Assembly (NCBI GenBank): GCA_002862305.1
Contig: PKCS01000075.1
Location: 1-35,318 of the forward strand
Direction: 5' to 3'
DNA length: 35,318 nucleotides
From: Phycisphaerae bacterium
GTDB taxonomy: Bacteria; Planctomycetota; Phycisphaerae; Phycisphaerales; SM1A02
Below, in pieces: positions 21,011-35,318 of the stretch. Every line of letters starts with the position of its first letter. Within the stretch, counting starts at the first letter, position 1. The position numbers were made by a program, and so were the translations under genes. The notes below the pieces were generated by a model, which was given only the letters and a program-made list of their open reading frames with translations, was not told the DNA's origin and searched no databases.

Positions 21011-21039
21011 ACGCCTCGCGCCGTGGAGGCGCGAGGCGT
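21011..21039. terminator. Hairpin between convergent genes
   Basis: A perfect 12-bp stem, ACGCCTCGCGCC (21011-21022) with GGCGCGAGGCGT (21028-21039), loop GTGGA. No T-run follows on either strand, so it is a non-canonical or Rho-assisted terminator shared by the lipoprotein and sodA genes. Confidence 0.6.
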
Positions 21040-26933: not shown

Positions 26934-26972
26934 GCGGGCCCGGTGAGCATGCTCACCGGGCCCGCCTTTCTT
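26934..26972 (+). terminator. Strong intrinsic terminator after the redoxin gene
   Basis: A perfect 15-bp stem, GCGGGCCCGGTGAGC (26934-26948) and its complement (26951-26965) around AT, followed by CTTTCTT. It ends the redoxin transcript and also stands at the 3' side of the convergent dnaN gene. Confidence 0.85.
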
Positions 26973-34058: not shown

Positions 34059-34118
34059 TCGGCGACTCCGAGTCGGCCTCGTGTCCCGCACCGGGGTGAA
34101 CTGCCATCGCCCTCCTGC

Positions 34119-34124
34119 TACGCT
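34119..34124 (+). promoter_or_regulatory. Possible -10 of the tRNA cluster
   Basis: TACGCT lies 11 bases before tRNA-Thr; GTGAAC 17 bp upstream is a weak -35. The three tRNAs end at a common terminator, so one transcript is likely. Confidence 0.3.
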
Positions 34125-34135
34125 AGGCCTGATTC

Positions 34136-34208
34136 GCCGCCGTAGCTCAATTGGCAGAGCGCGTGATTTGTAATCTCGAGGTTACCGGTTCGATTCCGGT
34201 CGGCGGCT
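34136..34208 (+). tRNA. tRNA-Thr (anticodon TGT)
   Basis: 73 nt cloverleaf. The acceptor GCCGCCG pairs with CGGCGGC, the D-stem GCTC/GAGC and T-stem ACCGG/CCGGT are intact, and the loop TTTGTAA gives anticodon TGT. The anticodon stem CGTGA/TCTCG has a T-T mismatch at its middle pair. No CCA is encoded. Confidence 0.93.
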
Positions 34209-34319
34209 TTTCAAGACCTCTGGGAGCCTCCCTCGCCGTGTTTCGAGGCCTTCCGATCCGCACTCTTGCTGAGACTCGAGCGCCGAGGTAGACTTCCGGG
34301 TCGTCCTCGGACGATCCCT

Positions 34320-34402
34320 GGCGGGTTACCCAAGTGGCCAAAGGGGGCAGACTGTAAATCTGCTGGCGTTCGCCTTCGAAGGTTCGAATCCTTCACCCGC
34401 CA
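34320..34402 (+). tRNA. tRNA-Tyr (anticodon GTA)
   Basis: 83 nt class II tRNA with a long variable arm. Acceptor GGCGGGT/ACCCGCC, anticodon stem GCAGA/TCTGC around CTGTAAA (anticodon GTA), T-arm AAGG-TTCGAAT-CCTT. Discriminator A; CCA not encoded. Confidence 0.95.
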
Positions 34403-34426
34403 TTCTTCCTCGGAACCGCGACTGTG

Positions 34427-34500
34427 CGGGGTGTAGCTCAGCTTGGTAGAGCGCGTCGTTCGGGACGACGAGGTCGCACGTTCGAATCGTGTCACCCCGA
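34427..34500 (+). tRNA. tRNA-Pro (anticodon CGG)
   Basis: 74 nt. Acceptor CGGGGTG/CACCCCG, D-stem GCTC/GAGC, anticodon stem CGTCG/CGACG around TTCGGGA (anticodon CGG), T-loop TTCGAAT. Discriminator A; CCA not encoded. G37 follows the anticodon, fitting a TrmD substrate. Confidence 0.94.
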
Positions 34501-34503
34501 TTC

Positions 34504-34536
34504 CCGCCTCGATCCCAGGATCGGGGCGGTTTCTTT
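34504..34536 (+). terminator. Intrinsic terminator of the tRNA cluster
   Basis: CCGCCTCGATCC (34504-34515) pairs with GGATCGGGGCGG (34518-34529), one T-G wobble, followed by TTTCTTT. Confidence 0.85.
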
Positions 34537-34627
34537 AGTGCTGACCCACCAAGTGGATCCGATGCGATCCCAGGGCTCCCAGGATGCTTCTGGAGGCTGG
34601 TTTATCGACCATCTTCGGATCGGGGCG

Positions 34628-34656
34628 TTGACAGCCCCCAAACATCAACGTATGTT
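34628..34656 (+). promoter_or_regulatory. Strong promoter TTGACA-N17-TATGTT
   Basis: A perfect -35 (34628-34633), 17-bp spacer and a four-of-six -10 (34651-34656), the best promoter match in the window. The predicted start is near 34663. No gene of known kind follows on this strand before the terminator at 34799-34831. Confidence 0.6.
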
Positions 34657-34665
34657 GATGTTTGG
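34638..34665. promoter_or_regulatory. Operator-like perfect inverted repeat
   Basis: CCAAACATCAAC (34638-34649) and GTTGATGTTTGG (34654-34665) are exact 12-bp inverted arms around GTAT. The site is AT-rich in GC-rich DNA and covers the spacer, the -10 and the start region of the promoter at 34628-34656, where a bound dimer would block RNA polymerase. I cannot name the regulator. Confidence 0.6.
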
Positions 34666-34831
34666 AGATCTTCCCCGGTCGGCCTCAGCCCCCACGTGGC
34701 CGACCCTCGGATCCTTCTTGCATGCCCGGAATGCCCTGAATCTTCGTCAACCCGGCATCGACGAATCGAATCAGGGTGGCCTCTTCCGGGTTCTGCTGAA
34801 AAGCGTGGACACCTCGGTGTCCACGCTTTTT
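34663..34831 (+). ncRNA. Candidate regulated small RNA
   Basis: About 170 nt between a strong promoter/operator and a strong terminator. No ORF here is convincing: the longest plus-strand frame through the region has no recognisable protein character, and internal starts give only a few codons. Pairings that can be read: GGTCGGCC/GGCCGACC (34677-34684 with 34698-34705); CCCTGA/TCAGGG (34734-34739 with 34771-34776) enclosing TTCGTC/GACGAA (34743-34748 with 34760-34765); and loop bases AACCCGG (34749-34755) with CCGGGTT (34786-34792), which would make a pseudoknot. It is not tmRNA, RNase P or SRP RNA by their usual landmarks. Identity as an RNA gene is inference. Confidence 0.45.
34799..34831. 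terminator. Bidirectional intrinsic terminator
   Basis: AAAA-GCGTGGACAC-CTCG-GTGTCCACGC-TTTTT: a ten-bp perfect stem with a four-base loop, T-run on the plus strand and A-run that becomes a T-run on the minus strand. It would end the candidate small RNA and the 70-residue hypothetical gene. Confidence 0.88.
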
Positions 34832-34856
34832 CATGCTCGGTTGCCGCTCGACCTGT

Positions 34857-35069
34857 TCAGTCGATCCCGCCGGTCATTGACTTGAGGGTGTGTTCCAGTC
34901 GCTCGCGTGTCTCAGGGCTGACCGCTCGCTCCGCCATCAGCCCCTCGATGGAGGCCGCCAGCAGTCCGGCATGGCGGCTGCTGCATGCTCCCTGGCTGGC
35001 CATCAGCCTCAGGCGGGCCGCCTTGAGGAATTCGTCGTATTCGGATGTCTGTCGGAGCTCGGATTGCAT
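34857..35069 (-). CDS. Small hypothetical protein
   Basis: A 70-residue predicted helical, soluble protein (FLKAARLRLMASQ, LLAASIEGLMAERAVSPETRERLEHTLKSM) with no recognised family. Support comes from position and signals: GAGG about eight bases before ATG 35069 and a terminator 26 bp beyond the stop. The beta-barrel gene upstream ends 78 bp away on the same strand. Confidence 0.5.
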   Translation of the reverse strand: MQSELRQTSEYDEFLKAARLRLMASQGACSSRHAGLLAASIEGLMAERAVSPETRERLEHTLKSMTGGID

Positions 35070-35147
35070 GCAGGCGTCCTCGTTGAACGCCTTCTTCGGT
35101 CCGGAGCATGGTCGTACTGGAGAAGAATCGCGAGATGCCGGGTCGGC

Positions 35148-35318
35148 TCAGAAGCGGATGAGCAGGCCGCCGGAGAGTCCGTTCTGCTGTCCGTCCCCGA
35201 ACGCCCCGTCGTATCCCACCGAGATCGACGTGTTCCACGACGGCGCCCAGAGCAGCTGGACCCCGGTGTAGAACTGGCTGACGTTCCCGTTCCCGGCATC
35301 CGCGCTCACCTGCGGGAG
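35148..35318 (-). CDS. Outer-membrane beta-barrel C-terminus, partial
   Basis: An open frame entering from the right edge, 56 codons to the stop at 35148. It reads as alternating amphipathic strands: SQFYTGVQLLWAP, WNTSISVGYDGAFGDG, QNGLSGGLLIRF. The terminal strand ending in Phe is the outer-membrane insertion signal typical of autotransporter and related beta-barrels, and the GYDGAFG turn pattern is common in autotransporter domains. The passenger and most of the barrel lie outside the window. Confidence 0.7.
   Translation of the reverse strand, partial: LPQVSADAGNGNVSQFYTGVQLLWAPSWNTSISVGYDGAFGDGQQNGLSGGLLIRF

Follow-up and report, generated by a model that had tools for sequence, protein, structure and literature searches.

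A predicted small RNA with a C-rich hairpin loop and a palindromic promoter site in two planctomycete genera

The locus and its neighbours

The window, that is, the entire 35,318-nucleotide stretch of planctomycete DNA analysed here, carries near its end a tRNA cluster and a convergent small protein gene, and between the two lies an interval for which the initial annotation had proposed a stand-alone regulated RNA. The elements that had been read from the letters, namely, TTGACA and TATGTT separated by 17 bases, a perfect 12+12 palindrome, a predicted transcript of about 170 nt with nested stems and a terminator, were all recovered in place. The features of the region, annotated where appropriate with their conservation in the seven loci described below, are as follows.

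34136-34500, + strand: cluster of tRNA-Thr, tRNA-Tyr and tRNA-Pro, the syntenic anchor just upstream, its order kept in the seven loci
34504-34529: terminator of the tRNA cluster, found by pattern scan
34628-34633, + strand: -35 box TTGACA, part of the sole sigma-70-like match in 34100-35318
34638-34665, strand-neutral: putative palindromic operator, 12+4+12 in the window genome, with a conserved core at 34644-34659 (ATCAACGTATGTTGAT)
34651-34656, + strand: -10 box TATGTT, spacer of 17, identical in 7/7 loci
34663-34831, + strand: predicted small RNA of about 170 nt, its 5' end deduced from the position of the -10 box
34677-34705, + strand: hairpin P1, an 8-bp stem with the loop CCCCCAC at 34689-34695 (putative seed), present in 7/7 minimum-energy folds
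34725-34790, + strand: predicted hairpin P2, with helices 34725-34731/34784-34790, 34734-34739/34771-34776 and 34743-34748/34760-34765 and the apical loop CCCGGCA
34799-34832, + strand: intrinsic terminator, perhaps bidirectional, with an A-run before it, a T-run after it and a strong hairpin in the fold
34857-35069, - strand: convergent small protein gene (70 aa), a syntenic neighbour with a related gene at all seven loci

Between positions 34100 and 35318, the promoter at 34628-34656 is the single sigma-70-like match, compared with an average of 0.2 in 50 shuffled sequences. The palindrome, CCAAACATCAAC-GTAT-GTTGATGTTTGG at 34638-34665, overlaps the promoter spacer, the -10 box and the start region. 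A scan for perfect inverted repeats (arms of at least 12, loop of at most 10) gave four places in the window, against none in 10 mononucleotide shuffles; the palindrome and the terminator of the predicted RNA account for two, and the other two are located at 26934-26965 and 21011-21039. The terminator of the RNA (34799-34831) is not listed by the pattern scan under its loop and tail rules and is visible in the fold.

A search pattern that combined the -35 box, the spacing and the operator core, written from the genomes G000, G001 and G003, was applied to 181 genomes of the family with up to three mismatches allowed. Matches were detected in 15 of these genomes, seven with 0-1 mismatch and the other eight with three, and a reversed control pattern matched two of the 181. 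Four loci beyond the three sources of the pattern, those of G002, G004, G010 and G110, were recovered with one mismatch. The set with 0-1 mismatch comprises all five genomes of the genus to which the window belongs (hereafter g1), three of which are incomplete (54-79%), and both genomes of a second genus, g7. The gene order mnmG, tRNA-Thr-Tyr-Pro, RNA gene and convergent small gene is shared by all seven loci, with mnmG and the tRNAs upstream of the RNA gene and on the same strand; in g7, the tRNAs and the RNA gene are separated by an opposite-strand gene, which in G110 encodes a ThuA domain. In 12 loci of other genera, drawn from 15 matched genomes outside the two genera, the sequence that follows tRNA-Pro (608-1510 bases per locus; 66 in L088) contained no match to the 16-bp core with fewer than four mismatches. 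The tRNA-cluster query also matched a second contig of G003 (L093, G003:C34:21665-21912), which carries another tRNA-Thr(tgt).

Aligned with its relatives, the interval proved to retain the promoter and the first hairpin in the seven syntenic loci of the two genera. A model of these two elements built from the seven loci (R1; sequence only, with no structure term) yielded no additional strong locus in 181 genomes of the family, 400 of the order or 347 of the class, the order and class samples overlapping the family. Because the seven loci themselves went into R1, its strong matches to them are not independent evidence; the independent part of the result is the absence of any further strong locus. 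Weak R1 matches in G007, G085, G091, G102, G103, G104 and G169 (E 0.012-0.046), none of which has a tRNA in the locus, were judged by eye to be chance or coding. Among the 400 genomes of the order, G205 (E 0.009) and G400 (E 0.003) were matched. A separate match in Acidiferrimicrobium (L034), where the tRNA scan gave one tRNA-Ala, was taken as chance.

The convergent small protein is characterised, in six aligned members, by an invariant A-R, a G-x-C and two leucines. A model made from six of the seven members matches 26 of the 181 family genomes (E up to 0.01), with E of 1.7e-14 or lower within the two genera and 2.9e-10 or weaker elsewhere. The protein has no Pfam match above the cut-off; a match of one of six members to a TetR-C-terminal-like domain (E 0.0034, 18 bits vs a cut-off of 27.4) was not taken as evidence. 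Beyond the small gene, G110 encodes on the opposite strand an autotransporter beta-domain protein (L047:7293-10220, - strand), and autotransporter-like C-termini were noticed by eye also in G001, G002 and G004.

The palindrome over the promoter

The conserved part of the palindrome is a 16-bp core, ATCAACRTATGTTGAY. The perfect 12+12 extent is specific to the window genome; G001 has a symmetric form of 22 bp, and the flanks are asymmetric in g7 and G002. Since the outer arms drift around a nearly invariant core, the core is kept as a DNA sequence and not as an RNA stem. The conservation is one of sequence rather than of pairing, which is the pattern expected of a DNA-binding site.

When sites with up to two mismatches to the core were counted throughout the seven genomes, G000, G001, G003 and G004 yielded one each, all at the RNA promoter. 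In G002, the site at the RNA promoter (one mismatch) is accompanied by three weaker ones with two mismatches, and G010 and G110 contain two sites each. The second site in the g7 genomes lies, in both, upstream of a gene for a large, secreted-looking protein; the G010 protein contains Peptidase_M43 and dockerin domains, and its G110 counterpart shares 71% identity with it in the part that matches. Two adjoining, related genes for M43-type secreted proteases are present in g7 (L128:7025-9535, - strand, and L129:353-2764, + strand). The first of these has the core upstream in both genomes, and upstream of the second there is no core match with fewer than six mismatches. The loop motif of the RNA, CCCCCAC, is also found within the first codons of the first gene. 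Upstream of the M43 protease homologues of G000 (two), G002, G003 and G004, no core match with fewer than five mismatches was detected; the homologue in G001 was outside the scan. The core was found at a second promoter in one genus, g7. Five palindrome-like places were observed outside the seven genomes, and three of these loci were scanned for tRNAs. In viral contigs, the promoter together with the core gave no matches, and the bare core with two flanking T gave 34.

The initial annotation had taken the palindrome for an operator, and this interpretation gains from the symmetric, nearly invariant 16-bp core and from its recurrence at a second promoter in another genus: a conserved symmetric site that covers the core promoter and is also present at another promoter is what a repressor operator would look like. 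As for further copies that might reveal a regulon, there is an extra copy in front of the M43 gene in g7 and a single site in four of the five genomes of the window's own genus. The putative operator of this predicted sRNA is unusually exclusive. No regulator gene was recognised next to the RNA gene or next to the second operator in g7, and a Pfam search of seven neighbours produced none that is a known regulator.

Among the alternatives to the proposed repressor site, the strongest, although still rather improbable in our estimate, is that an activator, or an architectural or partition protein, binds the palindrome, or else that the palindrome marks a promoter specific to a particular sigma factor. 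For the operator of a repressor, one or two copies per genome would be a small number, and the failure to recognise a regulator gene adjoining the palindrome loci is likewise compatible with such a role. However, in all seven RNA loci, the site covers the spacer, the -10 box and the start, with TTGAC in six loci (TTGCC in G004) located 17 bases before TATGTT, so that a dimer bound there would block RNA polymerase; moreover, a sigma factor would presumably have no need for the symmetric left half of the site within the spacer.

Predicted structure of the transcript

The segment 34657-34835 folds better than all of 200 dinucleotide shuffles (z -6.4; z -3.3 with the terminator left out). Without the terminator, five of the seven RNAs reach z of -3.2 or lower, and G001 (z -0.6) and G002 (z -1.1) are not distinct from the shuffles. 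The terminator has a weak T-run in G001 and G002 and cannot be read in G110. The full-length alignment of the RNAs was of poor quality and was discarded.

The best conserved part of the RNA is its first hairpin, P1, which was absent from the initial annotation. The sequence CCCCAC is invariant in all seven RNAs, and the loop motif CCCC(C)AC lies in or at the P1 loop; in the folds predicted for g7, part of the final AC is base-paired. The P1 stem sequences have strongly diverged between the lineages, with pairing kept in 52 of 56 cells and changes on both sides at all eight positions, a level of pairing that was reached in 0.01% of 20000 random swaps of 5' and 3' strands between species, although the manual choice of registers from the folds favours pairing to some extent. 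In a run-length shuffle test of P1, which admits no mismatch and a short loop only, five of the seven RNAs gave a fraction of 0.04 or less, and G000 (0.49) and G002 (0.31) failed. The covariation that a functional RNA structure should leave is present as compensatory changes in the P1 stem across the seven species.

At the gathering score, Rfam matched only tRNAs in the window and the six other loci, and a search of 34560-34870 with E up to 10 produced nothing, so the RNA locus matches no catalogued family. Judged by title and abstract, none of the papers listed in literature searches on planctomycete small RNAs or on non-coding RNA in Phycisphaerales describes this RNA. The element has its own promoter and an intrinsic terminator, contains no conserved ORF and shows compensatory structure (in P1 among seven species; in P2 as read from separate folds), and would represent a novel sRNA family of an established type.

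RNAs with C-rich hairpin loops are known from other bacteria. The 6C RNA of mycobacteria (Rfam RF01066) belongs to a family defined by a pair of stem-loops whose loops each contain some six or more C; in the planctomycete RNA, the P1 loop has 4-5 consecutive C followed by AC, and the P2 loop is CCCGGCA. The C-rich anti-Shine-Dalgarno loops of RsaE of staphylococci and of the alphaproteobacterial CCUCC-loop sRNAs provide a second comparison: a C-rich seed in a hairpin loop and a stand-alone promoter and terminator are shared, whereas the planctomycete RNA has no Rfam match to any of them. The 6C RNA and B11 of Mycobacterium abscessus similarly display C-rich loops on hairpins; the planctomycete RNA differs from them in the lack of an Rfam match even at E 10, in the phylum and in the palindrome over the promoter. 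For B11, the eccB4 5' UTR is reported to contain a tract of six G to which one or the other of two C-rich loops could bind, and repression persisted when a single loop was mutated, whichever of the two it was (PMC10470900).

Conceivably, the C-rich loop and the hairpins bind a protein, so that the RNA would act as a sponge rather than on mRNA. The presence of two conserved loops, CCCC(C)AC and, within the window's genus, CCCGGCA, would suit such a function, but a protein partner is not known, and in M. abscessus the repression of a G-tract reporter by B11 is reported to be tied to the C-rich loops (PMC10470900). We consider a sponge unlikely and mRNA pairing the better interpretation of the loop.

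The second hairpin, P2, is less secure. Its apical loop is CCCGGCA in all five g1 species, and a different second hairpin is predicted in g7. RNAalifold, applied to a sequence-only MAFFT alignment of P2, did not return the P2 fold, so P2 rests on the folds of the individual species. Its outer helix (34725-34731/34784-34790), which the initial annotation did not include, uses the 3' partner of a pseudoknot proposed there: above the nested stems 34734-34739/34771-34776 and 34743-34748/34760-34765, the loop AACCCGG (34749-34755) was to pair with CCGGGTT (34786-34792). In the window, this pseudoknot would have seven perfect pairs and a duplex energy of -10.8 kcal/mol, which, added to the opened fold of -20.6, gives -31.4 vs -29.0 for the nested fold, the cost of pseudoknot formation being omitted; G003, inspected by eye, could form five of the pairs. 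That cost is real, however, and would probably cancel the gain. Furthermore, the competing outer helix is predicted in all five g1 species, in two sequence versions, and three of these (G001, G002 and G004) lack CCGGG downstream of the P2 loop. Energy does not decide the matter; conservation does, and, as far as the compared sequences indicate, it speaks against the pseudoknot as the conserved fold, which we regard as improbable.

That the transcript encodes a small protein or leader peptide instead of a functional RNA is the least plausible possibility and a very unlikely one: open frames do run through the region (77 aa in G000, 64 aa in G003 and 61 aa in G004), and a similar frame is common to G002 and G004, but the frames vary in sequence and register between lineages, the G002/G004 frame, with 1, 4 and 3 differences at codon positions 1, 2 and 3, respectively, is by eye not retained in G000, G001 and G003, the ATGs in the palindrome lie at or before the inferred start site, the downstream ATG is lost in G002, and the P1 stem displays covariation in place of a coding pattern. 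The original impression that the interval holds no convincing ORF is in line with the seven loci, among which no reading frame is conserved.

A possible role of the RNA

The conservation of the locus in seven syntenic positions, the retention of its promoter and operator, the compensatory changes in P1 and the lack of a conserved frame bear out the proposal of a stand-alone regulated RNA, as a prediction from comparative data. In our assessment, 34663-34831 probably encodes a small RNA that acts in trans through a C-rich seed loop and is made when an unlinked dimeric repressor leaves its operator. A homodimeric repressor encoded elsewhere in the genome would occupy the palindrome and block RNA polymerase; the signal of this repressor would release it, and the RNA would be made. 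The C-rich loop may then pair with mRNAs at G-rich stretches of the type GUGGGG(G), located in or close to ribosome-binding sites, and so change translation, in a manner comparable to that proposed for B11 (PMC10470900). The secreted M43 metalloprotease of the second genus is probably under the control of this regulator as well.

SgrS offers a precedent for an sRNA serving as the chief target of a single transcription factor, the activator SgrR, which is encoded next to sgrS. The planctomycete RNA would share this trait; it differs in that its putative operator overlaps the -10 box and in that no regulator gene was recognised beside it.

Small-RNA regulation is poorly charted in planctomycetes: in a review table of annotated distinct sRNAs, eight are given for the entire Planctomycetes-Verrucomicrobia-Chlamydiae group vs 345 for Proteobacteria (PMC9029176, Table 1). 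Because promoter, operator, fold and candidate seed are all defined for this locus, and in seven genomes, the expression of the RNA, its repressor and its targets are each directly testable. As a more tentative suggestion, one that we hold to be possible rather than probable, transcription of the sRNA could be the main or only duty of the unlinked repressor in one genus, the repressor being shared with a secreted M43 metalloprotease in the other. If this is true, one signal would couple extracellular proteolysis with post-transcriptional control via a C-rich seed in the second genus.
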